64,000 nt of DNA, taken from contig NZ_JOOA01000002.1 in NCBI RefSeq assembly GCF_000712055.1, forward strand, positions 1,798,001 to 1,862,000. Reading direction: 5' to 3'. The position numbers and the translations under genes are program-made. How positions within the stretch are numbered: position 1 is the first letter of the stretch; each line of letters begins with the position of its first letter. This document shows, in pieces, positions 2,993 through 23,889 of the stretch. This stretch comes from Ruminococcus sp. HUN007 (GTDB lineage: Bacteria; Bacillota; Clostridia; Oscillospirales; Ruminococcaceae). The notes beneath the pieces are model-generated. The model worked only from the letters and a program-made list of their open reading frames with translations, made no database searches and was not told where the DNA came from.

Positions 2993-3046
2993 AAAAAGCA
3001 TATCCCTCCCGCGTAAACATTGATGCGGGTAAGGATATGCTTTTTT
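2993..3046. terminator. Bidirectional intrinsic terminator
   Basis: Arms AAAAGCATATCC (2994-3005) and GGATATGCTTTT (3033-3044) pair perfectly, with an inner CCCGC/GCGGG stem and runs of A and T on the two sides. It lies between the convergent cysteine desulfurase and zinc-ribbon genes. Confidence 0.85.
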
Positions 3047-3087
3047 ATGTCACGGGATCTCATGAATTCCCGCGTCTGCAGTTATAT

Positions 3088-4359
3088 TCACTTGTCAGCG
3101 AGCACCTTTGTGGTGTACTGACGTACATAAAGATCACGTCTGGTCGTAAAATCAGTTTCGGCATCGCCTGCAAAGGTATCAGGTTCTGTCTCGTACGTTT
3201 TTCTGCAGCTTCTCACTGCTGCAGAACAGACGAGAAACGCTGCTGCTGCACCGAGCAGCGAACCTATTCCTATACTTTTGGCCAGCACACTGCCCTGACC
3301 TCCGGATCCGGTAAAGCCTGTAACTGTTGTAAGAACACAGGTCAGAAGCACTACGGTCACAAAGACAAGCAGCGCCCAGAGCGAGATCTTAAGCGAAGAC
3401 ACCGGCATCCTGCCGGCAAATTTTCCGGTCTGCCCGTTTACTGCGAAGCGATAGGTCTTCCTGCCGCTGGTGTAGGTCAGAAGCCACATCGGTACAAGCA
3501 CATAGTTCCAGCTTGCTCCGAGAATATCGATATCCTCATTCTGCGGTATGAACTCGTTGTACTTTGAGACAGACTTTCTGACAGTTTTTTTAGCGTCAGC
3601 TATTACCTTTTCCTTTATACATCTGAAGGCTTCTCCCTTGTTCACGGAACAGTACTCCGCCGGATAGCGGTATATATCCGAAGGATCAAAACGCTGAAGC
3701 TTTGTAAAATCATAGTTTCCTGCCATGTCGAGCAGTTCTTTGTCCAGTTTTCCGACTGCATCCGAAGGAACTGAAAAATACTCGGCTCCGCCGTGTCTTT
3801 CAATTGAATAGTCTCTCGTCTCAGTGTAAAGATCCCTGCCGTATATCCACGACTTGATTATTTTTCCTGTACCGATAACGTTTATTCCGACATTGCAGTC
3901 AGCCATCCACACCGGCAGATATACTCCTTTCAGACCTGAAAGCACCTCGTCCGAAGAAAAGAACGAAGGAGAGAGTCTGCCGTAGGCAAGGTTTTCCCTG
4001 AATATTTCGACCGCCTTGTCAGATCCGATCTCAAACGGAAGTATTCCTTCCGGACGATAGCCGGCAGGAAGGCTGCCTTTTTTCTGCAGTCCTCCGCCGC
4101 AGCAGAAGCACCACCCGATCTTAAGATCGGCTTCCGCCATTATTTCAGCTCCGCATACGGTGCATTTATAAAGCTCGCCCTGACAGAACTCATCATCATC
4201 TCCTGCTGGTTTTTCTGCAGGAGATGAGCCTTTTCCCTTGAACAGCTTTTTTACCTGTTCATCAGTAAAAAAACTTCCGCAGCTTCTGCAGCCGAATTTC
4301 CGGTGATCAGCTCTGTATTCCAGAGTACCGTCGCAGTTCGGACACTTACTCTGTCCCAT
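3088..4359 (-). CDS. Membrane protein with TFIIB-type zinc ribbons
   Basis: I recognise the architecture but not a specific function. The first 20 residues form a zinc ribbon (CPNCDGTL, then CRSCG), and a second ribbon follows near residue 65-90 (CTVCGAEI, then CFCCGGG). The middle region is soluble, with LPFEIGSDKA typical of this group of firmicute ribbon proteins. Two hydrophobic helices lie near the C-terminus (around LLVFVTVVLLTCVLT and IGIGSLLGAAAAFLV), so it is probably anchored with its ribbons inside. I chose the ATG at 4359 because AGGTGG lies at the right distance; a GTG at 4368 is possible. The start overlaps the end of the upstream lipoprotein gene by 14 bp, so translation is likely coupled. 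Confidence 0.75.
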   Translation of the reverse strand: MGQSKCPNCDGTLEYRADHRKFGCRSCGSFFTDEQVKKLFKGKGSSPAEKPAGDDDEFCQGELYKCTVCGAEIMAEADLKIGWCFCCGGGLQKKGSLPAGYRPEGILPFEIGSDKAVEIFRENLAYGRLSPSFFSSDEVLSGLKGVYLPVWMADCNVGINVIGTGKIIKSWIYGRDLYTETRDYSIERHGGAEYFSVPSDAVGKLDKELLDMAGNYDFTKLQRFDPSDIYRYPAEYCSVNKGEAFRCIKEKVIADAKKTVRKSVSKYNEFIPQNEDIDILGASWNYVLVPMWLLTYTSGRKTYRFAVNGQTGKFAGRMPVSSLKISLWALLVFVTVVLLTCVLTTVTGFTGSGGQGSVLAKSIGIGSLLGAAAAFLVCSAAVRSCRKTYETEPDTFAGDAETDFTTRRDLYVRQYTTKVLADK

Positions 4360-13994: not shown

Positions 13995-14029
13995 TAGCAG
14001 GATTTTTCATAAAGCATTCTGCTTAACGC

Positions 14030-14496
14030 TTGACTTTATTTGCTTTCATAATATCAAGACATCTCAGGAATGTATTTACCGAAGGCGAACTTGAAAGAAA
14101 TTCAGTTGTCGCAAATTTTGCGACAACTGCCGCAGTAATGTGTTTAATGTCAGGTGCCGCACCGGCTATGACCGCTTTCGCTGAAAACTTCCCGGAAGAG
14201 GACAAGAACGGCAGCAAAAAGAATGCTGAGATAGCTGCTTCATCAGGAAACAAAAACGGCACCACTCCGAACCTCAGGAGGATGCCGCATCAGAAGATCC
14301 TGCCAGTGAACCGTCAGTAAGACCGTCCACTTCAGGAACCAATCTTCTCTTACCAGCAGTTATCATACTCGCCATTATTGGCGGAACTGCGTTCTACTTC
14401 TTCAGAGTCAAAGGTGCTGCTTCAAACAAAAGCAAGAAGCGTGGATTTGATGAAGAAGACGATGATTTCGACGACGGTGATAGCGTAGACGAATAA
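14030..14496 (+). pseudogene. Broken CD1107-family (DUF4366) conjugative element protein
   Basis: Two frames together make a typical small membrane-anchored protein of integrative conjugative elements. The first part (to about 14,270) has a signal-like segment (TTAAVMCLMSGAAPAMTAFA). The second continues in another frame as PQEDAASEDPASEPSV, then a membrane helix (LLLPAVIILAIIGGTAFYFF) and an acidic tail ending DDDFDDGDSVDE. One base is missing near 14,270, so the gene cannot be read through. The true start is unclear. A 27-bp palindrome at 14,103-14,129 lies inside the coding part. I infer that this is a relic of an ICE; topB and ImmA relics follow downstream. Confidence 0.65.
14103..14129. 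repeat. 27-bp perfect palindrome inside the DUF4366 relic
   Basis: The arm CAGTTGTCGCAAA is followed by one T and its exact reverse complement. It reads through in frame as VVANFATT. Related palindromes occur at 19,829, 20,181 and 23,505. Confidence 0.8.
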
Positions 14497-14591
14497 TCAT
14501 TCCGTCCTGTTTCGGGGCGAATACATATTTGGCACCTATTGAATAACTATTGTGACTATCGTAACTGTGTGAGAAATGGCAATAATTGAAC

Positions 14592-14620
14592 TTGACATGC
14601 AATTTGTTAAATGATATAAT
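14592..14620 (+). promoter_or_regulatory. Consensus promoter of the BspA-like gene
   Basis: TTGACA (14592-14597) and TATAAT (14615-14620) are both perfect and are separated by 17 bp. The gene start lies 46 bp further on, after AAGAAGGAG. A diverged copy of this promoter is found at 16,461-16,489. Confidence 0.85.
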
Positions 14621-14666
14621 TACAATGATTAAAAAAATCAATCTTATTCAAAGAAGGAGATACAAC

Positions 14667-16124
14667 ATGAATTCAAACAAAAATACGAGCAGAATATTAA
14701 AATTTGTACTTTCTCTCGCCATCATCGGAACCACCGCAATGCCTTCTGCACAGACAATGCCCGCATTATTTGACAACACAGCGATTTCCGTTAGTGCGGC
14801 AACGTCCTGCTGTTCCTTTGATTCTTCCACCGGAATCCTGACACTGAGCGGTATAGTATCCAAAGATGAGGTTATGAAATACAGAAACGCAAAGTCAGTT
14901 GTTTGTGAAGAAGGCACTCTTTTCCCACAAGACTGTAGTGGTTTGTTTATGGTATTTAAAGCTACCAGCATCAGTTTGAAGGGTGCCAACACCACCAATG
15001 TTAAAGATATGCACAATATGTTCGATAACTGCAACAACCTGACTTCACTGGATTTAAGCGGATTTAATACGAGTGAGGTCACAAATATGCACAATATGTT
15101 CCATTACTGTTCCAGCCTGACTTCGCTGGACGTAAGTGGATTTGATACGAGCAAGGTCGGAAATATGGAATCTATGTTCTGCGGCTGTTCCAGCCTGACT
15201 TCACTGGATGTAAGTAGATTTGATACAAGAGAGGTCAGATATATGAACTCTATGTTCTACGACTGTAAAAGCCTGACTTCACTGGATTTAAGCGGATTTG
15301 ATACAAGTAATGTCACAAATATGACTGAAATGTTCTTCGACTGTTCCAGCCTTAAAGAACTGAAATTAAGTGAATCTTTTAAAACAAGCAATGTCACAAA
15401 TATGGGTGATATGTTCCATTGCTGTTCCAGCCTGACTTCACTGGATGTAAGTGGATTTAATACAGAAAAGGTCACATATATGCATGGAATGTTCCACGAA
15501 TGTTCCAGCCTAACTTCACTGGATGTAAGCAGATTTAATACGAGCAATGTTTATTCAATGAGTTATATGTTCTATAAATGTTCCAAACTGGAATCTCTTG
15601 ATTTAAGCCAATTTGATACAACACATTGTTCGGCTGTTATGTATCAGATGTTCTATGCATGTAATAACCTGAAAATGCTCAAGCTCGGTGAGAAATTAAA
15701 AGGAATATCAAATGCGTCTTCTCTTCCGAACGGCAATGGCTGGGTTAATGTCAACGATTCAAAAACGATTGTAAGCGGCAACGGTGAGTATGCTGCTATC
15801 ACAAACAACGGCACTAATACCTACAAGCAGTTTACGAATGAGTCGCTCACATATCCTACAAACATTAAGGTAAAATACAATGAGAAAAACCACCAGGTAA
15901 GATTTACATGGGACGAGGTAGAAGGTGCTGACAGATACAGTATCGCTGTTTATAAGTCAGGAAAGTGGAGAATCCAGGCTGATGACATCACTGACACAGT
16001 TTACACCTCACCTAAAAATCTTACTCCTGGCAAGACCTATAAAGTTGCTATTGCAGCAAGAGTTAATGGTGAATGGGATACTGAAAACGCCATCAAAAAT
16101 GCTGTGTCTGTTACCATCAAGTGA
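14667..16124 (+). CDS. BspA-like leucine-rich repeat surface protein (DUF285) with fibronectin III-like domain
   Basis: The 485-residue protein starts MNSNKNTSRILKFVLSLAII, a signal peptide with cleavage likely after SVSAA. Residues of about 85-355 hold some ten repeats of about 24 residues with the pattern (F)NTSxVTNMxxMFxxCSSLTSLD, the DUF285/BspA type of leucine-rich repeat. The C-terminal 95 residues form a fibronectin III-like domain (TNIKVKYNEKNHQVRFTWDE, VYTSPKNLTPGKTYKVAI). No membrane anchor or sorting signal is visible, so it is probably secreted. Proteins of this kind act in adhesion, but the target is unknown. AAGAAGGAG before the ATG at 14667 fixes the start. It sits between two diverged copies of an ICE relic. 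Confidence 0.85.
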   Translation: MNSNKNTSRILKFVLSLAIIGTTAMPSAQTMPALFDNTAISVSAATSCCSFDSSTGILTLSGIVSKDEVMKYRNAKSVVCEEGTLFPQDCSGLFMVFKATSISLKGANTTNVKDMHNMFDNCNNLTSLDLSGFNTSEVTNMHNMFHYCSSLTSLDVSGFDTSKVGNMESMFCGCSSLTSLDVSRFDTREVRYMNSMFYDCKSLTSLDLSGFDTSNVTNMTEMFFDCSSLKELKLSESFKTSNVTNMGDMFHCCSSLTSLDVSGFNTEKVTYMHGMFHECSSLTSLDVSRFNTSNVYSMSYMFYKCSKLESLDLSQFDTTHCSAVMYQMFYACNNLKMLKLGEKLKGISNASSLPNGNGWVNVNDSKTIVSGNGEYAAITNNGTNTYKQFTNESLTYPTNIKVKYNEKNHQVRFTWDEVEGADRYSIAVYKSGKWRIQADDITDTVYTSPKNLTPGKTYKVAIAARVNGEWDTENAIKNAVSVTIK

Positions 16125-16190
16125 TAAACTGAGATTAATCAGCATTCAGAGCAAATCATAAATATATTTGTTTACAAGCATCATATACAT

Positions 16191-16224
16191 AAGAGCTTCT
16201 CACTCCGAGGAGCTCTTTTATTTT
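16191..16224 (+). terminator. Intrinsic terminator after the BspA-like gene
   Basis: AAGAGCTTCTC pairs with GAGGAGCTCTT with one mismatch and is followed by a T-rich run. Confidence 0.75.
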
Positions 16225-16244
16225 GCCCTGAAAGGAATGATTCA

Positions 16245-16371
16245 ATGAAGTTAGTAATCGCAGAAAAAACCGAGTGTTGGCATGGCACTGGCTAAGGCGC
16301 TCGGTGTTACAGGTAATAAGCACTGCTAAGATGATTTCGACGAATATGAAACTGTAGATGAAGACGACTGA
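16245..16371 (+). pseudogene. topB (DNA topoisomerase III) start fused to a DUF4366 tail, relic
   Basis: The segment starts MKLVIAEK and, after a one-base frame change at an A run, continues KPSVGMALAKALGVTGNK, the hallmark N-terminus of topoisomerase III. It then breaks off and runs into DDFDEYETVDEDD and a stop, which resembles the acidic tail of the DUF4366 relic at 14,460-14,496. In ICEs of the Tn5397/CTn kind, DUF4366 and topB genes are neighbours, so this looks like a deletion scar. It cannot make a functional enzyme. Confidence 0.7.
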
Positions 16372-16460
16372 TCTTCTCGCCCTGTGAAGGGCGGTTACAT
16401 ATTTTGCTGCTATTGATTAGCCATCGTAACTGAGTGAAGAATAGCATGGTGGATACATAC

Positions 16461-16489
16461 TTGCGACTAACATTCAGTCATGATATAAT
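16461..16489 (+). promoter_or_regulatory. Promoter-like sequence, diverged copy of the BspA promoter
   Basis: TTGCGA and TATAAT lie 17 bp apart. The surrounding 150 bp align with the region upstream of the BspA-like gene (14,470-14,620), so this is a duplicate. It now precedes only the broken ImmA/IrrE relic and the WYL regulator. Confidence 0.55.
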
Positions 16490-16511
16490 ATCTTTATAAA
16501 TTATCTATGAT

Positions 16512-16733
16512 ATGAGCTCGAAGTTTGAAATAGAAGCAAACATTTTTGCGGCAAGCTTCATCATAAGTGATGAGGAAGTCATGGAAAATGTGCGATACGG
16601 CTACACAACAGAACAGGCAGCATAGTCAATGTGCGTGCCGCATGAAATGCTGCTTGTTAAACTTAACGACATGAATTCAAGAGGATGCAAACTGAACATT
16701 CCGTATATTCCTCGTTCAGATATGCTCTTATAG
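16512..16733 (+). pseudogene. ImmA/IrrE metallopeptidase C-terminal relic
   Basis: The frame reads EIEANIFAASFIISDEEVME and, after an in-frame TAG at 16,623-16,625, SMCVPHEMLLVKLNDMNSRG and LNIPYIPRSDML. This matches the C-terminal half of ImmA/IrrE family proteins, which cleave phage and ICE repressors. The HExxH catalytic part is missing. The relic stands where an ICE regulation module would stand, next to the DUF4366 and topB pieces. Confidence 0.7.
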
Positions 16734-16765
16734 AAGAAAGTACTTTCAAATACAAACAATGGAAG

Positions 16766-16793
16766 CAATTTGTCAGACATGTCTGACAAATTG
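16766..16793. repeat. 28-bp perfect palindrome upstream of the WYL gene
   Basis: The arm CAATTTGTCAGACA is followed directly by its exact reverse complement. It ends 12 bp before the ATG at 16806, overlapping the ribosome-site region, so it could be an operator of the WYL regulator or hide its start in RNA. It reads as LSDMSDKL if translated. Confidence 0.75.
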
Positions 16794-16805
16794 GGAAGGT
16801 ATAAA

Positions 16806-17783
16806 ATGAATGACGTCAAAACTGTAACTAACCGATTAAAAATTCTTTATCTTTATAAGATCCTTCTTGAAAAGACGGACAATAACCATTATATATCGAT
16901 GCCAGAGATAATCAGTCAGCTCAGTCTTTACGGAATATCAGCTGCACGAAAAGCTCTTTATGACGATATTGAAGCTTTGAAGACTTATGGCCTTGATGTT
17001 CAGCAGCTCAAAGGAAACACTTCCGGTTACTACGTAGCAAGCCGTGAATTTGAACTTCCGGAGTTAAAACTTCTTGCAGATGCAGTTACCTCTTCCCGCT
17101 TCCTGACCGAAAAGAAATCGAATGAACTGCTCAAGAAGATCGAAGGCCTTGCAAGTGTACACGAAGCAAAGCAGATCCATCGTCAGGTGTTCGTATCCAA
17201 CAGAGCCAAAGCAATGAATGAACGTATCTATATTAATGTTGATACTATTCATCGTGCAATAGCTGAAGGAAAGAAAATCTCCTTCAAATATTTTGACTAC
17301 GATCTTGAAAAGAAGAAAAAATACCGTGACGGACTTCGCGTCTGTTCCCCGTATGCTCTCAGCTGGACAGATGAACGCTACTATCTTATCGCACACTATG
17401 AGAAGTATACTTCAATATCAAATTTCCGTGTGGACAGAATGGAAAGTGTAAAGATTCTTGAAGAAGATATCGTACCTAAGCCTTCGGATTTCAGCATAGC
17501 TGAATATATGAACTCTTCCTTCTCAATGTTCAGCGGAGAATCAAGAGATGTTAAGCTCCGTTTTGACAACAAGCTTATCAATACAGTCATCGACCGCTTC
17601 GGGAAAGATGTATCTCTTATTCCTGACGGTAACGAGCACTTTACTGTTCATGTGAAAGTAAAAGCAGAAGCACCGTTCTTCGCATGGCTGTTCCAGTTCG
17701 GAAGTAAAGCAAAGATCGTTGAACCGGCATCACTAAAAGAAAAGTACAGAATACAGATTGAAGATGTTCTGAATACATTATAA
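16806..17783 (+). CDS. WYL-domain transcriptional regulator
   Basis: The 325-residue protein has a DeoR/HTH_11-like winged helix at residues 1-70 (TNRLKILYLYKILLEKTDNN, then ARKALYDDIEALKTYGLDV). The WYL domain spans about 130-235 (KKISFKYFDYDLEKKKKYRD, VCSPYALSWTDERYYLIAHY), and the C-terminal WCX-like extension ends FAWLFQFGSKAKIVEP. WYL proteins bind nucleic acid or nucleotide ligands and often control defence or mobile-element genes. I chose ATG 16806 because GGGAAGG is well spaced; an upstream in-frame ATG at 16770 lies inside a palindrome. VOC and DUF6508-like genes follow closely, so it may head an operon. A relic of a second WYL C-terminus is at 20,307. Confidence 0.88.
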   Translation: MNDVKTVTNRLKILYLYKILLEKTDNNHYISMPEIISQLSLYGISAARKALYDDIEALKTYGLDVQQLKGNTSGYYVASREFELPELKLLADAVTSSRFLTEKKSNELLKKIEGLASVHEAKQIHRQVFVSNRAKAMNERIYINVDTIHRAIAEGKKISFKYFDYDLEKKKKYRDGLRVCSPYALSWTDERYYLIAHYEKYTSISNFRVDRMESVKILEEDIVPKPSDFSIAEYMNSSFSMFSGESRDVKLRFDNKLINTVIDRFGKDVSLIPDGNEHFTVHVKVKAEAPFFAWLFQFGSKAKIVEPASLKEKYRIQIEDVLNTL

Positions 17784-17796
17784 TCAGGAGAAGAAT

Positions 17797-18177
17797 ATGA
17801 TAAAAGGAATACATCACGTTTCGCTTAAATGCAGCAAAGGAAGACAGTACAATGAAGTTTTAAATTTTTATTCTGAAGTTCTCGGTATGAGCTATCGTAC
17901 CTGGGGAGATGAAGCAGATCCGGACGGAGTTTTATTCGATACAGGTAACGGACTTATCGAGATTTTCACTAACAAGGATGATGAAGCTGAATACGGAATT
18001 ATCCGTCACTTTGCGCTTGAAACTGATGACGTTGATTCAATGATCTCAAAAGTACGTTCCGCCGGATATGAAGTTTTCATATCACCAAAGGACATTTCAG
18101 TTCCGTTTAACGCAAGAGTGGCATTCTGCTTTGGTCCTCTTGGCGAGCAGGTGGAACTGATTCAGGTAAAGGGATGA
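17797..18177 (+). CDS. VOC family protein (glyoxalase/bleomycin resistance fold)
   Basis: The 126-residue protein is a single vicinal-oxygen-chelate unit pair: IKGIHHVSLKCSKG at the start with a metal-ligand type His, NGLIEIFTN in the middle, IRHFALETDDVDS at the start of the second half, and FCFGPLGEQVELIQ at the end. These are the usual His/Glu ligand positions. The substrate cannot be read from sequence. AGGAG precedes the ATG, 13 bp after the WYL stop, so the two are co-transcribed. Confidence 0.85.
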   Translation: MIKGIHHVSLKCSKGRQYNEVLNFYSEVLGMSYRTWGDEADPDGVLFDTGNGLIEIFTNKDDEAEYGIIRHFALETDDVDSMISKVRSAGYEVFISPKDISVPFNARVAFCFGPLGEQVELIQVKG

Positions 18178-18186
18178 TAATACACT

Positions 18187-18504
18187 ATGGACAGTGCAAA
18201 GAAAATAGAAATACTCAAAGATCTTCTTAATGAGAATTCTGATCGTGAAAGTATTTATTATACTGCCCTTGAAGAAATGGGAGATCTTAAAAAAGATTAT
18301 TATGATTACATGACTACAGAACCGATTAGTCTTGATAAGGAACTACTCAGAATACCTGATGCAGATTATGAATTATGTGCTGCACTGCTCACGGCAATAC
18401 TCAGAGAAGACTGTAAGTGCTGCGGTACATTGATCAGAAGAATTAATAACGGTCAGGTTTCCATGCTCCTGAACAAGATGATCGAACTGCTGATAAAGAT
18501 GTAA
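18187..18504 (+). CDS. DUF6508-like hypothetical protein
   Basis: The protein of 105 residues has no signal or membrane segment. The stretch DADYELCAALLTAILREDCK followed by RRINNGQVSMLLNKMIELL resembles the family DUF6508, from memory and without a search. Its N-terminus is helical and acidic. It begins 9 bp after the VOC gene stop and is probably the last gene of the WYL-VOC unit. Its function is unknown. Confidence 0.6.
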   Translation: MDSAKKIEILKDLLNENSDRESIYYTALEEMGDLKKDYYDYMTTEPISLDKELLRIPDADYELCAALLTAILREDCKCCGTLIRRINNGQVSMLLNKMIELLIKM

Positions 18505-18589
18505 TTTGCTATCCGAGATATACAGTGATTTGTCCAAACATGATTATGAAATTCAATGCTTATGAATAGATTTAATTACGAGCATTGAG

Positions 18590-18614
18590 ATTGTGACAAC
18601 AGTGTTGTCACAAT
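18590..18614. repeat. 25-bp palindrome, copy 1
   Basis: The arm ATTGTGACAACA is followed by one G and its exact reverse complement. An identical copy with the same flanks lies at 18,746, and a variant lies inside the YhcG gene at 19,062. No gene is seen in the 285 bp between 18,505 and 18,789. Confidence 0.8.
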
Positions 18615-18745
18615 TCATGCCAATTATATCCTTCTGCATTTTTGCAGATTACAGATTAGATTTATCGCCCAAACGTCTTGAATTCGGGCTTTACAATATT
18701 CATTTATAATTATATAATTATATTAAATGTGAATGCTTAACTAAG

Positions 18746-18770
18746 ATTGTGACAACAGTGTTGTCACAAT
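18746..18770. repeat. 25-bp palindrome, copy 2
   Basis: It is identical to the copy at 18,590 including neighbouring bases (GATT before, TCA after). It ends 20 bp before the YhcG start, so it could act as an operator or cap the leader RNA. Confidence 0.8.
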
Positions 18771-18789
18771 TCAGAAAGGTGAACGTATT

Positions 18790-19779
18790 ATGGATGAGTT
18801 AGTAATTGCAAATCATTTGATTCAAATAATTAACAATTCTAAACAGAAAGCTATGAAAAAGGTCAATGAGGAATTGATACATATGTACTGGGAAATTGGC
18901 GAGTATCTTTATAATGAATCGCAGGATTCTTCCTATGGAGATTCCTATATTGATAACGTAGCTAAAAAAATCCAGGCTGCACTTCCTGGAATTAAAGGGT
19001 TCAACAAGCGTGGATTATACAGAATGAAGAAATTTTACGAAACTTACAGAGACGATAAAAATGTGACAACACTGTTGCCACAAATCAGCTGGTCGAATCA
19101 TCTTACTATACTTTCACAGTCGCGTACTGCCGAAGAACGTCTTTTTTACATGGCACTGTGTGTAAAAGAAAACTACTCTGCAAGAGAGCTGTCACGGCAG
19201 ATGGAAAGTGGTTACTACGAAAGATACATGCTTTCAAAAGAAAAGATTTTACCTGAACCGATAAAAGGCTTAAAAGAAAATCCATTCCTTGACTCGTATG
19301 TAATCGAGTTTTTGAATTTGCCATCGAATTTCAAAGAATCCGATTTAAGAGACGGCCTGATACAAAATATGAAAGATTTCATACTTGAAGTTGGTAAGGA
19401 TTTTACGTTTATTGGTAAAGAAGTTAGAGTTCAGGTTGGCGGGGAAGATTATAAAATAGATCTTCTTTTTTTTCATCGTGGATTACAGTGCCTTGTTGCA
19501 TTTGAATTAAAAATAGGAAAATTTAAACCTGAGTACATATCTAAAATGGATTTTTACCTGGAGGCACTTGATCGCCAAAAGAAAAAGTCAAATGAAAATC
19601 CAAGTGTTGGAATGATATTATGTGCTGCAAAAGATGACGAAGTAGTTGAATATGCTATGAGCAGAACAATGTCTCCGATGATGGTTGCAGAATATCAGCT
19701 TCAGTTACCTGATAAAAATGTTCTTCAGAGAAAACTCCAGGAATTAATCAATATTCCTTTAATTGAAGATGATGAATGA
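18790..19779 (+). CDS. PDDEXK nuclease domain protein, YhcG/DUF1016
   Basis: The 329-residue protein has the DUF1016 N-terminal domain (residues 1-150: VNEELIHMYWEIGEYLYN, RGLYRMKKFYETY, ISWSNHLTILSQSRTAEERLFY) and a C-terminal PD-(D/E)XK nuclease fold (VQVGGEDYKIDLLFFHRGLQCLVAFELKIGKF, with the acidic and lysine residues in IDLLF and FELKIG). YhcG proteins accompany restriction-modification and mobile elements; the exact job is not known. An imperfect palindrome (19,062-19,082) lies in the conserved NVTTLLPQ stretch. AGAAAGG lies before the ATG. The stop overlaps the start of a RhuM fragment by 4 bp. Confidence 0.88.
   Translation: MDELVIANHLIQIINNSKQKAMKKVNEELIHMYWEIGEYLYNESQDSSYGDSYIDNVAKKIQAALPGIKGFNKRGLYRMKKFYETYRDDKNVTTLLPQISWSNHLTILSQSRTAEERLFYMALCVKENYSARELSRQMESGYYERYMLSKEKILPEPIKGLKENPFLDSYVIEFLNLPSNFKESDLRDGLIQNMKDFILEVGKDFTFIGKEVRVQVGGEDYKIDLLFFHRGLQCLVAFELKIGKFKPEYISKMDFYLEALDRQKKKSNENPSVGMILCAAKDDEVVEYAMSRTMSPMMVAEYQLQLPDKNVLQRKLQELINIPLIEDDE
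19062..19082. repeat. Imperfect palindrome inside the YhcG coding region
   Basis: TGTGACAACA and TGTTGCCACA pair with one mismatch around one base. It resembles the two intergenic palindromes upstream and encodes part of VTTLLPQ. Confidence 0.6.
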
Positions 19780-20105
19780 CACTGATTATTAATAATGCTT
19801 TGAAAGAAGAATTATCAAGTGATAATTCAACTGTCGCAAAATTTGCGACAGTTCAAACGGAAGGTGATCGTGAGGTAAAACGTGACATTGAATACTATAA
19901 CCTTGATGTTATAATATCAGTTGGATACCGTGTAAAATCTCAGCGTGGCGTGGAATTCCGTAAGTGGGCAAACAAAGGGGCTGTTAAAAGTGATTCCCTC
20001 GAAAGTATCAGTAAGAAAAGAATTATTGACTGCGATATTGTTCGGATTGAAAAGGCAGTGAAGAAGCATGAGAAAAAAGCTGTGCTGGTTCAAAAAGTAG
20101 CTTAA
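19776..20105 (+). CDS. RhuM-family fragment
   Basis: The 109-residue frame holds the middle of the RhuM (virulence protein) family: INNALKEELS, TVAKFATVQTEGDREVKRDI, EYYNLDVIISVGYRVKSQRG and FRKWANK. The usual N-terminal helix-turn-helix (LTQxQMAELF type) and the long C-terminus are missing; after WANK the sequence is unrelated. It therefore looks like a decayed gene with a start coupled to yhcG (ATGA overlap). A perfect 25-bp palindrome at 19,829-19,853 encodes the VAKFAT stretch. Confidence 0.6.
   Translation: MTLIINNALKEELSSDNSTVAKFATVQTEGDREVKRDIEYYNLDVIISVGYRVKSQRGVEFRKWANKGAVKSDSLESISKKRIIDCDIVRIEKAVKKHEKKAVLVQKVA
19829..19853. repeat. 25-bp perfect palindrome inside the RhuM fragment
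   Basis: The arm AACTGTCGCAAA is followed by one A and its reverse complement, in frame with TVAKFATV. Confidence 0.8.
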
Positions 20106-20180
20106 ATGCGTTCGGATCAGTGCAGTTTTTCCTATTTGGTTTTCTGAAACTAAATTTACAGCCCCAAATACGTGGAGCAA

Positions 20181-20201
20181 CTGTTGCAAAATTTGCAACA
20201 G
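20181..20201. repeat. 21-bp palindrome, RhuM-derived remnant
   Basis: The arm CTGTTGCAAA pairs around one A. The next bases (ATCAAACTTAAGGTGGCTG) resemble the sequence after the palindrome in the RhuM fragment, so this looks like a second decayed copy of that site. Confidence 0.65.
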
Positions 20202-20202
20202 A

Positions 20203-20569
20203 TCAAACTTAAGGTGGCTGCTGCGCAGCAATTATAATAGCACGCCGCAGGCGTACTATTTCATTTGAAGATTTCCTGTTCACTCTAATTTTAAACAGAG
20301 ACAATTATGAGAAAGACGTTTTCATGGGCATTCCGGTTTGGAAGAAAAGCAAAAATAGTTGAACCTGAAAAATTTAAAGTGAAGTATGAAGTACATGGTT
20401 CAGCTGAATGAAGTGCTGTCGGGGATGAATTAAAACAAGGAGTAAAGAAAGCAATGAATAAAATTATAAAAGACACTATTCATGCCAATGGAATAGATAT
20501 TGGCATATATACATCTGACTTTGAAAATGAATATATTTCACTAACCGATATTGCTCGGTATAAAAGTGA
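20203..20569. repeat. 367-bp direct repeat, copy 1
   Basis: It matches 23,523-23,889 at 362 of 367 bases with no gaps, counted by eye. It covers REP-like hairpins, a WYL C-terminal relic and the first 39 codons of the KilA-N gene. Confidence 0.93.
20307..20433 (+). pseudogene. WYL regulator C-terminal relic
   Basis: The frame MRKTFSWAFRFGRKAKIVEP matches the C-terminus of the intact WYL protein upstream (FFAWLFQFGSKAKIVEP). After a frame change it ends MVQLNEVLSGMN, like ...IEDVLNTL there. Only about 40 residues remain. It lies inside the direct repeat and is present again at 23,627. Confidence 0.65.
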
Positions 20570-21305
20570 TTCACCAGATGATGTAATAAAAAACTGGCTA
20601 AGAAATAAGGATATTATAGAATTTTTAGGGCTGTGGGAATCACTAAATAATCCCGGTTTTAAACCCGTCGAATTCGACGGGTTTAAAAAGCAAGCTGGTT
20701 CAAATGCATTTACTTTATCTCCAAAGAAGTGGATTGAATCAACCAGCGCTATTGGAATTGTAAGCAAATCAGGAAGATATGGCGGCACATATGCACATTC
20801 AGACATTGCTTTTGAGTTTGCTTCATGGATCTCACCTGAATTCAAGCTGTATATAATACAGGATTATAAGAGATTAAAAACAGAAGAAACAAGTAAACTC
20901 TCACTTAACTGGAATCTAAACAGAGAAATATCAAAACTGAATTATAAAATTCATACTGATGCTATTAAAGCAAATCTTATCCCACCTGAACTTACACCTA
21001 TTCAGATTTCCTATACTTACGCAAATGAAGCCGATCTTCTTAATACTGTTTTATTCGGTAGGACGGCAAAACAATGGCGTGATGAAAATCCTGAAGCAAA
21101 AGGGAACATAAGAGATCATGCAACGATTTATCAGCTTCTTGTTTTGGCTAACATGGAAAGTTATAATGCAGTCCTTATCAATCAGGGAAAATCGCAGGCT
21201 GAAAGAATGTCACTTCTTCATGAACTTGCAGTTCAGCAGCTGTCTACATTAGACAGACTTGAACTTAATAGTTTACCTGGAATTGAAAAAAAGAACAATG
21301 ACTGA
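20454..21305 (+). CDS. KilA-N domain protein
   Basis: The 283-residue protein has a KilA-N domain at about 25-125 (ISLTDIARYKSDSPDDVIKN, NWLRNKDIIEFLGLWE, GGTYAHSDIAFEFASWISPE), a DNA-binding fold of phage antirepressors. The C-terminal part (about 150-280) is typical of bacterial chromosomal versions (LNTVLFGRTAKQWRDENP, ANMESYNAVLI). ACAAGGAG precedes the ATG. Its first 39 codons lie inside the 367-bp direct repeat and exist again at 23,774. A perfect 32-bp palindrome (20,657-20,688) encodes FKPVEFDGFK. Function in the cell is unknown. Confidence 0.87.
   Translation: MNKIIKDTIHANGIDIGIYTSDFENEYISLTDIARYKSDSPDDVIKNWLRNKDIIEFLGLWESLNNPGFKPVEFDGFKKQAGSNAFTLSPKKWIESTSAIGIVSKSGRYGGTYAHSDIAFEFASWISPEFKLYIIQDYKRLKTEETSKLSLNWNLNREISKLNYKIHTDAIKANLIPPELTPIQISYTYANEADLLNTVLFGRTAKQWRDENPEAKGNIRDHATIYQLLVLANMESYNAVLINQGKSQAERMSLLHELAVQQLSTLDRLELNSLPGIEKKNND
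20657..20688. repeat. 32-bp perfect palindrome inside the KilA-N gene
   Basis: The arm TTTTAAACCCGTCGAA is followed directly by its exact reverse complement. It is fully within the reading frame and encodes FKPVEFDGFK, in a conserved part of the protein. Confidence 0.9.
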
Positions 21306-21317
21306 TTGGGGACTATA

Positions 21318-21412
21318 ATGATACCTCAGTATCGACTCGACGAAACGATGACTCGATATTATTTTGTCGAGTCACTCGATAAAATTTCGTCGAGTCACTT
21401 GACAAAATTGTT
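21318..21412. repeat. Short repeats before the AlbA/RecG-like gene
   Basis: A 23-bp unit containing GTCGAGTCACT occurs twice in tandem (21,361-21,406), and GACTCGACGAAA (21,334-21,345) is the exact inverse of TTTCGTCGAGTC (21,385-21,396). A 33-residue frame starting at 21,318 crosses it (RLDETMTRYYFVESLDKI). It is probably a broken 5' part of the next gene. Confidence 0.6.
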
Positions 21413-23504: not shown

Positions 23505-23521
23505 CTGTCGCTTTGCGACAG
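23505..23521. repeat. Short palindrome of the RhuM-site type
   Basis: CTGTCGC and GCGACAG are separated by TTT. It lies directly before direct-repeat copy 2, just as a related palindrome lies directly before copy 1. Confidence 0.6.
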
Positions 23522-23522
23522 T

Positions 23523-23889
23523 TCAAACTTAAGGTGGCTGCTGCGCAGCAATTATAATAGCACGCCGCAGGCGTACTATTTCATTTGAAGATTTCCTGTT
23601 CACTCTAATTTTAAACAGAGATAATTATGAGAAAGACGTTTTCATGGGCATTCCGGTTTGGAAGAAAAGAAAAAATAGTTGAATCTGAAAAATTTAAAGT
23701 GAAGTATGAAGTACATGGTTCAGCTGAATGAAGTGCTGGCGGGGATGAATTAAAACAAGGAGTAAAGAAAGCAATGAATAAAATTATAAAAGACACTATT
23801 CATGCCAATGGAATAGATATTGGCATATATACATCTGACTTTGAAAATGAATATATTTCACTAACTGATATTGCTCGGTATAAAAGTGA
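23523..23889. repeat. 367-bp direct repeat, copy 2
   Basis: It has five mismatches to 20,203-20,569, at constant offset 3320. It carries the second copy of the WYL relic and the truncated KilA-N start. Confidence 0.93.

Follow-up and report, generated by a model that had tools for sequence, protein, structure and literature searches.

Near-perfect palindromes within RhuM, YhcG and KilA-N genes as candidate self-recognised intragenic operators

Introduction

Phage lambda O is a replication initiator with the origin inside its own gene, toxin-antitoxin systems and phage repressors are controlled through auto-operators at their promoters, and lac O2 and the gal system provide intragenic operators that act together with promoter operators. 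Here we compare these arrangements with the short palindromes that lie in frame within genes of the RhuM, YhcG/DUF1016 and KilA-N families in a 64-kb stretch of a contig of Ruminococcus sp. HUN007 (the window; palindrome coordinates are positions in it). We suggest that each of these genes encodes the reader of its own palindrome.

The proposed arrangement would resemble the toxin-antitoxin and phage repressor operators in that the palindrome is read by the regulated gene's own protein; there, however, the site is at the promoter, whereas the palindrome genes usually have it within the coding sequence, and a copy before the start is found in 3/226 of them. With lac O2 and gal they would share an operator within the coding sequence that acts with promoter operators, but those operators serve a repressor encoded elsewhere, while the palindrome genes would encode their own reader. 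In the excerpted text of PMC4492784, the replication origin of repABC plasmids is placed inside repC. Both repC and lambda O are like the palindrome genes in that the site of a DNA-binding protein is inside its own coding sequence, so that the two travel together; they differ in being replication initiators, while here several families carry short, near-perfect palindromes, and nothing pointing to a role in replication was seen, though no search aimed at one was made. The Rickettsia palindromic elements are described as selfish insertions of ~100–150 nt in the excerpt of PMC4316617. They likewise place palindromic DNA inside open reading frames (ORFs) without breaking them, but going by that excerpt they are several times the length of the palindromes discussed here, which have 25–32 bp and a sequence that differs gene by gene.

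Genes of the RhuM, YhcG/DUF1016, KilA-N, Bro-N and DinD families are mobile and functionally obscure. Other source excerpts describe DUF1016 as a nuclease family (PMC4316617), the domain shuffling of DNA-binding modules (PMC8263062) and PDC genes in S. thermophilus (PMC11514479). The PADLOC models PDC-S02, S05, S13 and S22, which are the best models of the proteins we scanned, are listed as single-gene anti-phage candidates. Self-palindromes in these families are not described in the abstracts and excerpts among the matches listed, which covered few subscription papers.

Results

The KilA-N gene of the window (20454–21305, + strand; PF04383; PADLOC candidate PDC-S22) contains a perfect 32-bp palindrome in frame at 20657–20688 (+), in the codons for FKPVEFDGFK, which we propose as an intragenic auto-operator. 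The YhcG/DUF1016 gene, of the PDDEXK nuclease family (18790–19779, +; PF17761 and PF06250; PADLOC PDC-S02), has its proposed auto-operator in frame at 19062–19082 (+; VTTLLPQ), where the imperfect palindrome reported by the first-pass annotation indeed has one mismatch and 9 of 10 pairs. A RhuM fragment devoid of the N-terminal helix-turn-helix-like stretch (19776–20105, +; PF13310) contains a palindrome at 19826–19856 (+; NSTVAKFATVQ) with one mismatch and a perfect inner 25 bp, and a perfect 27-bp palindrome is found at 14103–14129 (+; SVVANFATTA) in a relic reading frame fused to the tail of another protein (14030–14145, +). The window palindromes are real and not chance products: six centred palindromes of score at least 12 are found in 14001–21400 and four in the other 56.6 kb, while 200 first-order simulations of 14001–21400 produced none. 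When the genes were recoded synonymously (5000 draws each), the observed pairing was reached in no draw for KilA-N or YhcG, in 21 for the RhuM fragment and in 16 for the 14103 site.

The frame at 14103 (SRHLRNVFTEGELERNSVVANFATTAA), previously taken for a DUF4366 relic, resembles the RhuM N-terminal region instead. A Pfam scan of this frame returned no match; the PADLOC model PDC-S23 matches 14051–14131 weakly (E 6.7e-4), and the N-terminal part of this model matches RhuM proteins too. The relic is most likely of RhuM type, not from a DUF4366 protein, and judging from these similarities the VANFAT and VAKFAT sites most likely belong to one family, not two. The in-gene sites thus come from three families, RhuM (twice), YhcG/DUF1016 and KilA-N. 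Two of the families taken to be unrelated, those of the sites at 14103 and 19829, are hence most likely the same.

To follow the sites across homologues we used 141 RhuM genes (found in 148 of 184 loci, once identical proteins were removed; 138 of them in the tree, with junk frames returned by the RhuM pattern left out of the counts), 52 distinct KilA-N proteins (from 108 sources, which often included the same contigs twice and of which 9 were unmatched by the pattern) and 44 distinct YhcG genes from 77 sources, three of which were dropped for their site score. A first YhcG scan of viral contigs gave no match. The palindromes differ in sequence both between and within families, and their aligned position is the same throughout a family. 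That position, in KilA-N homologues from viral contigs, is always between F[KN]xxE and Fxx[FIV]K, where the arms vary from gene to gene yet stay complementary: AAACCCGTCGAA with TTCGACGGGTTT in the window, AACCGTATGGAA with TTCCATACGGTT, AATTATACCGAA with TTCGGTATAATT, AAACTGGTCGAA with TTCGACCAGTTT, and others. The residue pairs encoded by the two arms change in step (PV/DG, RM/HT, YT/GI, LV/DQ), and the 42 distinct sites each have 9–12 of 12 arm pairs around one fixed centre. Another type of phage KilA-N gene (locus L115, 3776–4198, +) also has a palindrome.

The same is seen in the other two families, where the palindrome is kept with quite different peptides: VAKFAT, VKEYLT, TEKISV, CRKFRQ and SKMEIV in RhuM, and VTTLLSQ, IANALRSQ, RHTLCAE and VQTVSAQ in YhcG. 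When right arms were redealt among genes, mean pairing dropped from 11.06 to 7.99 (sd 0.25) in KilA-N, from 10.80 to 6.09 (sd 0.20) in RhuM and from 10.38 to 5.80 (sd 0.30) in YhcG, and with one arm slid or the centre displaced it was at most 5.0. Against a synonymous null the observed and expected pairs were 11.25 and 7.30 in KilA-N (p<0.05 in 52/52 genes), 11.16 and 8.05 in RhuM (128/141) and 10.44 and 5.50 in YhcG (40/41), with the centre fixed in KilA-N and searched for in RhuM and YhcG. It had been suggested that upkeep of the palindromes by changes on both arms be checked in homologues, and that a conserved protein motif with random synonymous positions would mark them as chance products of codon choice. 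The arms do change together, even when residues change, and the reverse of the second pattern is seen, in that the motif varies while the palindrome stays.

Among the mismatches of the outer ten pairs, G.T is as common as A.C over the three families (28 against 27; 19:12 in RhuM, 6:7 in KilA-N, 3:8 in YhcG), and with no G.U preference the constraint therefore acts on DNA. It is also particular to these genes, with a palindrome in 19/517 other ORFs of the same loci compared to 90/141 in RhuM, 45/51 in KilA-N and 18/43 in YhcG.

What does the variable core of the palindrome follow? When columns are ranked by corrected mutual information over the 141 RhuM genes, leaving aside the stretch that the palindrome itself encodes, the top ones are 49, 45, 44, 43, 42, 48 and 46 (numbering of locus L042), in the segment RDKSTISR. 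With overall similarity removed, the partial correlation between the core and six-residue windows of the protein is highest for KSTISR in RhuM (partial r 0.63), DDVIKN in KilA-N (0.60) and KRGLYR in YhcG (0.49), compared to 0.22, 0.34 and 0.31 for the top-scoring windows at a distance of more than 12 residues, and none of 300 label shuffles per family reached the best-window correlation. The tracked window is the helix-turn-helix-like stretch in each family; in the Ruminococcus window the tracking residues, identified by homologue comparison, are encoded at 20577–20606 (+; DDVIKNWLRN) in the KilA-N gene and at 19006–19026 (+; KRGLYRM) in the YhcG gene. Windows in the linker between stretch and palindrome have partial r of at most 0.23, therefore linkage alone does not explain the association.

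At the level of single positions the RhuM rules are close to one-to-one: residue 49 is Glu with C,G at -5,-4 in 55/55 genes and Arg with G,C in 37/38, and residue 44 follows base -7 (Lys with T in 74/75, Arg with G in 24/26, Gln with A in 10/10). Two of these pairings, Arg–G and Gln–A, are classic protein-DNA contacts. Parsimony on a tree of 138 RhuM genes, built from the C-terminal part of the protein, gives 48 changes of the three-base core; the stretch differs in 13/13 sister pairs with different cores and is identical in 17/25 with the same core. A sequence search of the PDB with one YhcG sequence and with RhuM and KilA-N profiles found no relative at E<=1, except for one match at E 0.37. 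The earlier suggestion of selection for a protein-binding site is strongly supported by the compensatory arm changes together with the tracking of the core by the helix-turn-helix-like stretch.

We came upon a fourth family through the Bro-N protein encoded next to a YhcG gene (L157); in this family a palindrome of score at least 9 follows the YWxxLKxRL stretch in 22 of 26 distinct members. Here KLKQRL goes with TGACA in 5/5, DLKxKL with TCCGA in 4/5 and V[LM]KxRL with TTACA in 8/9, the remaining one having CTACA. DinD, a Bro-N branch according to Pfam, also has the palindrome, and pairs SWDKF with TTTCCC (2 loci) and QWRxF with TTTTGC. A palindrome is likewise present in a Rha-ANT antirepressor gene (L118, 511–1098, -). 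The hsdS genes of L013 (4316–4348) and L199 (gene 3001–4140) have a palindrome in the motif IV[KE]xLDNFT whose two arms have changed in step; no palindrome of score at least 11 was found at this motif in 30 other hsdS loci from 10 genomes, one of which (L171) has a palindrome elsewhere in the gene. The C-terminal halves differ, being a PDDEXK nuclease in YhcG and Fic in L267, and therefore the shared function should lie in the DNA-binding half. Among the five proteins scanned, the best PADLOC models are S02 for YhcG, S05 for RhuM, S13 for Bro-N and DinD and S22 for the KilA-N type of the window, with best E-values from 2.4e-121 (DinD) to 5.7e-172 (RhuM, L193).

In E. coli dinD the reading stretch and the site are exchanged as one block. 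The first 440 nt match K-12 (L433, 5761–6585) over at least 80% of their length in 1878 of the 4629 genomes with a match, and in 14 of 25 among the matches listed the match begins only at nt 247. In strain H15, nt 31–240, which contain both stretch and palindrome, are 55% identical to K-12 (116/210), while the rest is nearly identical, and this block is the same in three intact alternative alleles (L461–L463).

The yhcG palindrome of the Ruminococcus window is accompanied by two perfect 25-bp intergenic copies, identical to each other (strand does not apply to the intergenic palindromes). They lie at 18590–18614 and at 18746–18770, with 19 bp between the latter and the start codon of yhcG, on either side of a sigma-70-like promoter that is predicted by consensus match only (18690–18718, +; 11/12). 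From this placement the copies look like operators. In KilA-N a 24-bp copy of the gene's own palindrome with one base changed ends 33 bp before the ATG in L089, and in the YhcG gene of L413 an imperfect cognate copy, read by eye, is directly followed by a probable ribosome-binding site and GTG start. Overall such copies precede 1/52 KilA-N, 2/38 YhcG and 0/136 RhuM genes, and 1/2260 in the same search with swapped controls. We sought gene-specific palindromes around KilA-N, RhuM and YhcG genes as operators at the promoter only, an arrangement that we reject. Few genes have cognate promoter copies; therefore the intragenic site is the rule.

Eight matches to DUF1016_N are present in the same genome, two or more of them truncated or relics, and their eight palindromes are all different, which would follow if each had to avoid the others. 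Three further perfect yhcG-type palindromes, in two places ~3.5 kb apart, are relics of the same module. These relics of the yhcG upstream module (L434, 1487–1714; L435, 1481–1713) each have a deletion, with the junctions at palindromes: the first upstream copy is joined with the second in one, and the second with the internal site in the other. Plain recombination between repeats is enough for such junctions, but they could equally result from YhcG cutting at its own sites. In E. coli K-12 yhcG (L432, 5828–6955) three palindromes are in frame in tandem, and another allele (L467) has two; the core in these arrays is CAGAC...GTCTG. Two similar palindromes in tandem within the coding sequence are also seen in the DUF1016 genes of L150 (1751–1839), L386, L427 and L398.

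The remaining window palindromes reported by the first-pass annotation are also present. A gene for a WYL-domain regulator starts (ATG at 16806) 12 bp after the end of a perfect 28-bp palindrome at 16766–16793, which is possibly this gene's own operator. A RhuM-type palindrome with one mismatch, previously placed at 20181, lies at 20179–20203 in DNA without a recognised gene, and a degraded one at 23505–23521, below the threshold of the scan and read by eye, is shorter, with a shortened centre. A 378-bp block at 20192–20569, which contains the 5' part of the KilA-N gene, is repeated at 23512–23889 with 98% identity; both copies adjoin a RhuM-type palindrome remnant, and the second copy of the KilA-N gene is truncated. 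An ORF encoding a HATPase_c_4 domain is directly preceded, at 21361–21409, by palindrome-like repeats (GTCGAGTCACT) and may represent a further family. A viral contig (L367, 2750–3061) has an 88-bp inverted structure built from repeated GACATTGTCG-like units.

Discussion

What is the role of these palindromes then? It is very probable, from the covariation, that each protein binds the palindrome of its own gene. That autoregulation is the purpose of this self-recognition we hold with clearly less confidence, though we favour it, because the junctions in the yhcG relics also fit cleavage by YhcG. Taken as a whole, the proposal that these genes combine a DNA-binding domain with their own in-frame palindrome as an intragenic auto-operator has in our estimate a probability of about 0.66. 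The palindrome lies in frame some 15–35 codons 3' of the helix-turn-helix-like stretch, which in the proposed mechanism would belong to an N-terminal DNA-binding domain. The domain would recognise the palindrome of its own gene, probably as a dimer, and the bound protein would limit its own transcription either as a roadblock or by looping with the promoter copy where one is present. Since the reading stretch and the site are within ~150 bp, the pair could move and diversify as one cassette. A mobile single-gene effector would in this way bring working self-control into a new host and avoid cross-talk with paralogues.

Several observations weigh against this proposal. Cognate copies before the start are rare, and most genes must therefore do with the intragenic site alone. 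The junctions in the yhcG relics fall at palindromes, as they also would if these were sites of cleavage or recombination. The search for the centre in RhuM and YhcG inflates the pairing in these two families. Some sites are poor, with a score of at most 8 in 7/141 RhuM genes, below 7 in the 3/44 YhcG genes that were dropped and of 7 in a second E. coli dinD allele. The association is also not confined to the tracked stretches, as RhuM columns 75 and 82, which are subfamily markers, associate with the outer arms, KilA-N residues 59, 81 and 129 rank alongside the stretch residues from outside it, and the twelve best single YhcG residue-base pairs are all outside the stretch. Finally, it is by their sequence that the tracked stretches look like helix-turn-helix recognition helices.

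If self-recognition is real, the site could still be something other than an operator, serving nuclease cleavage, homing, recombination or as an intragenic replication origin. YhcG comes from a PDDEXK nuclease family, each of the two relics of the yhcG module has a deletion from one palindrome copy to another, tandem arrays of three and of two palindromes occur in E. coli yhcG alleles, and the excerpt on repABC plasmids (PMC4492784) shows that an origin can lie within repC. However, recombination between identical 25-bp repeats needs no dedicated enzyme, the palindrome is accompanied by C-terminal halves of different kinds, with the DNA-binding half in common, and the copies flanking the promoter-like site resemble operators. 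We therefore regard an effector site as unlikely, although it is an alternative to be taken seriously.

The other explanations do without self-recognition. Template switching at quasi-palindromes would keep the arms matched with no function needed, and would yield just such matching arms of variable sequence where residue changes are tolerated, but it would not make the core track residues 15–35 codons away rather than the intervening linker, and it does not predict that the palindromes are restricted to these families; it is already disfavoured and we consider it very improbable. A selected mRNA hairpin in the coding region would agree with the non-complementary centre of 3–7 nt at some sites and with the slight excess of G.T in RhuM alone, which is not kept over the three families. 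Many sites are without a loop, and a hairpin would leave the association of the core with the protein stretch unexplained, which makes it more improbable still. Least probable of all is the insertion of a small mobile palindromic element of the Rickettsia type, the other suggestion of the first-pass annotation. The window does hold intergenic copies and relics, but the palindromes are too short, different families have no sequence in common, each family has its site at one aligned place (in KilA-N in ungapped columns of an alignment of 13 sequences), and the extra copies of the yhcG palindrome found in the genome come from this module, either from its upstream region or from relics of it. For an empty-site comparison, no homologues without the palindrome were found.

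Returning to the intragenic auto-operator, we think it rather likely that a general design of mobile single-gene effectors lies behind it, a cassette of ~150–250 bp in which the DNA-reading stretch is followed by the palindrome that it reads, overlapping the code for the next part of the protein, with the two halves diversifying and being swapped together. Each gene would then have a private self-recognition address, the peptide encoded by the address would be hypervariable as a by-product, and the DNA-protein code would be readable from sequence even in families for which our sequence searches found no relative of solved structure.

These genes are examples of coding sequence that evolves under a constraint at the DNA level, strong enough for the residues encoded on either side of a dyad to be replaced. 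If the proposal is true, the binding sites of very many uncharacterised proteins would be readable from sequence and a recognition code could be derived from them. E. coli K-12 yhcG and dinD make self-recognition testable in a laboratory strain, and the silencing of single-gene effectors on their entry into a new host would become testable as well.

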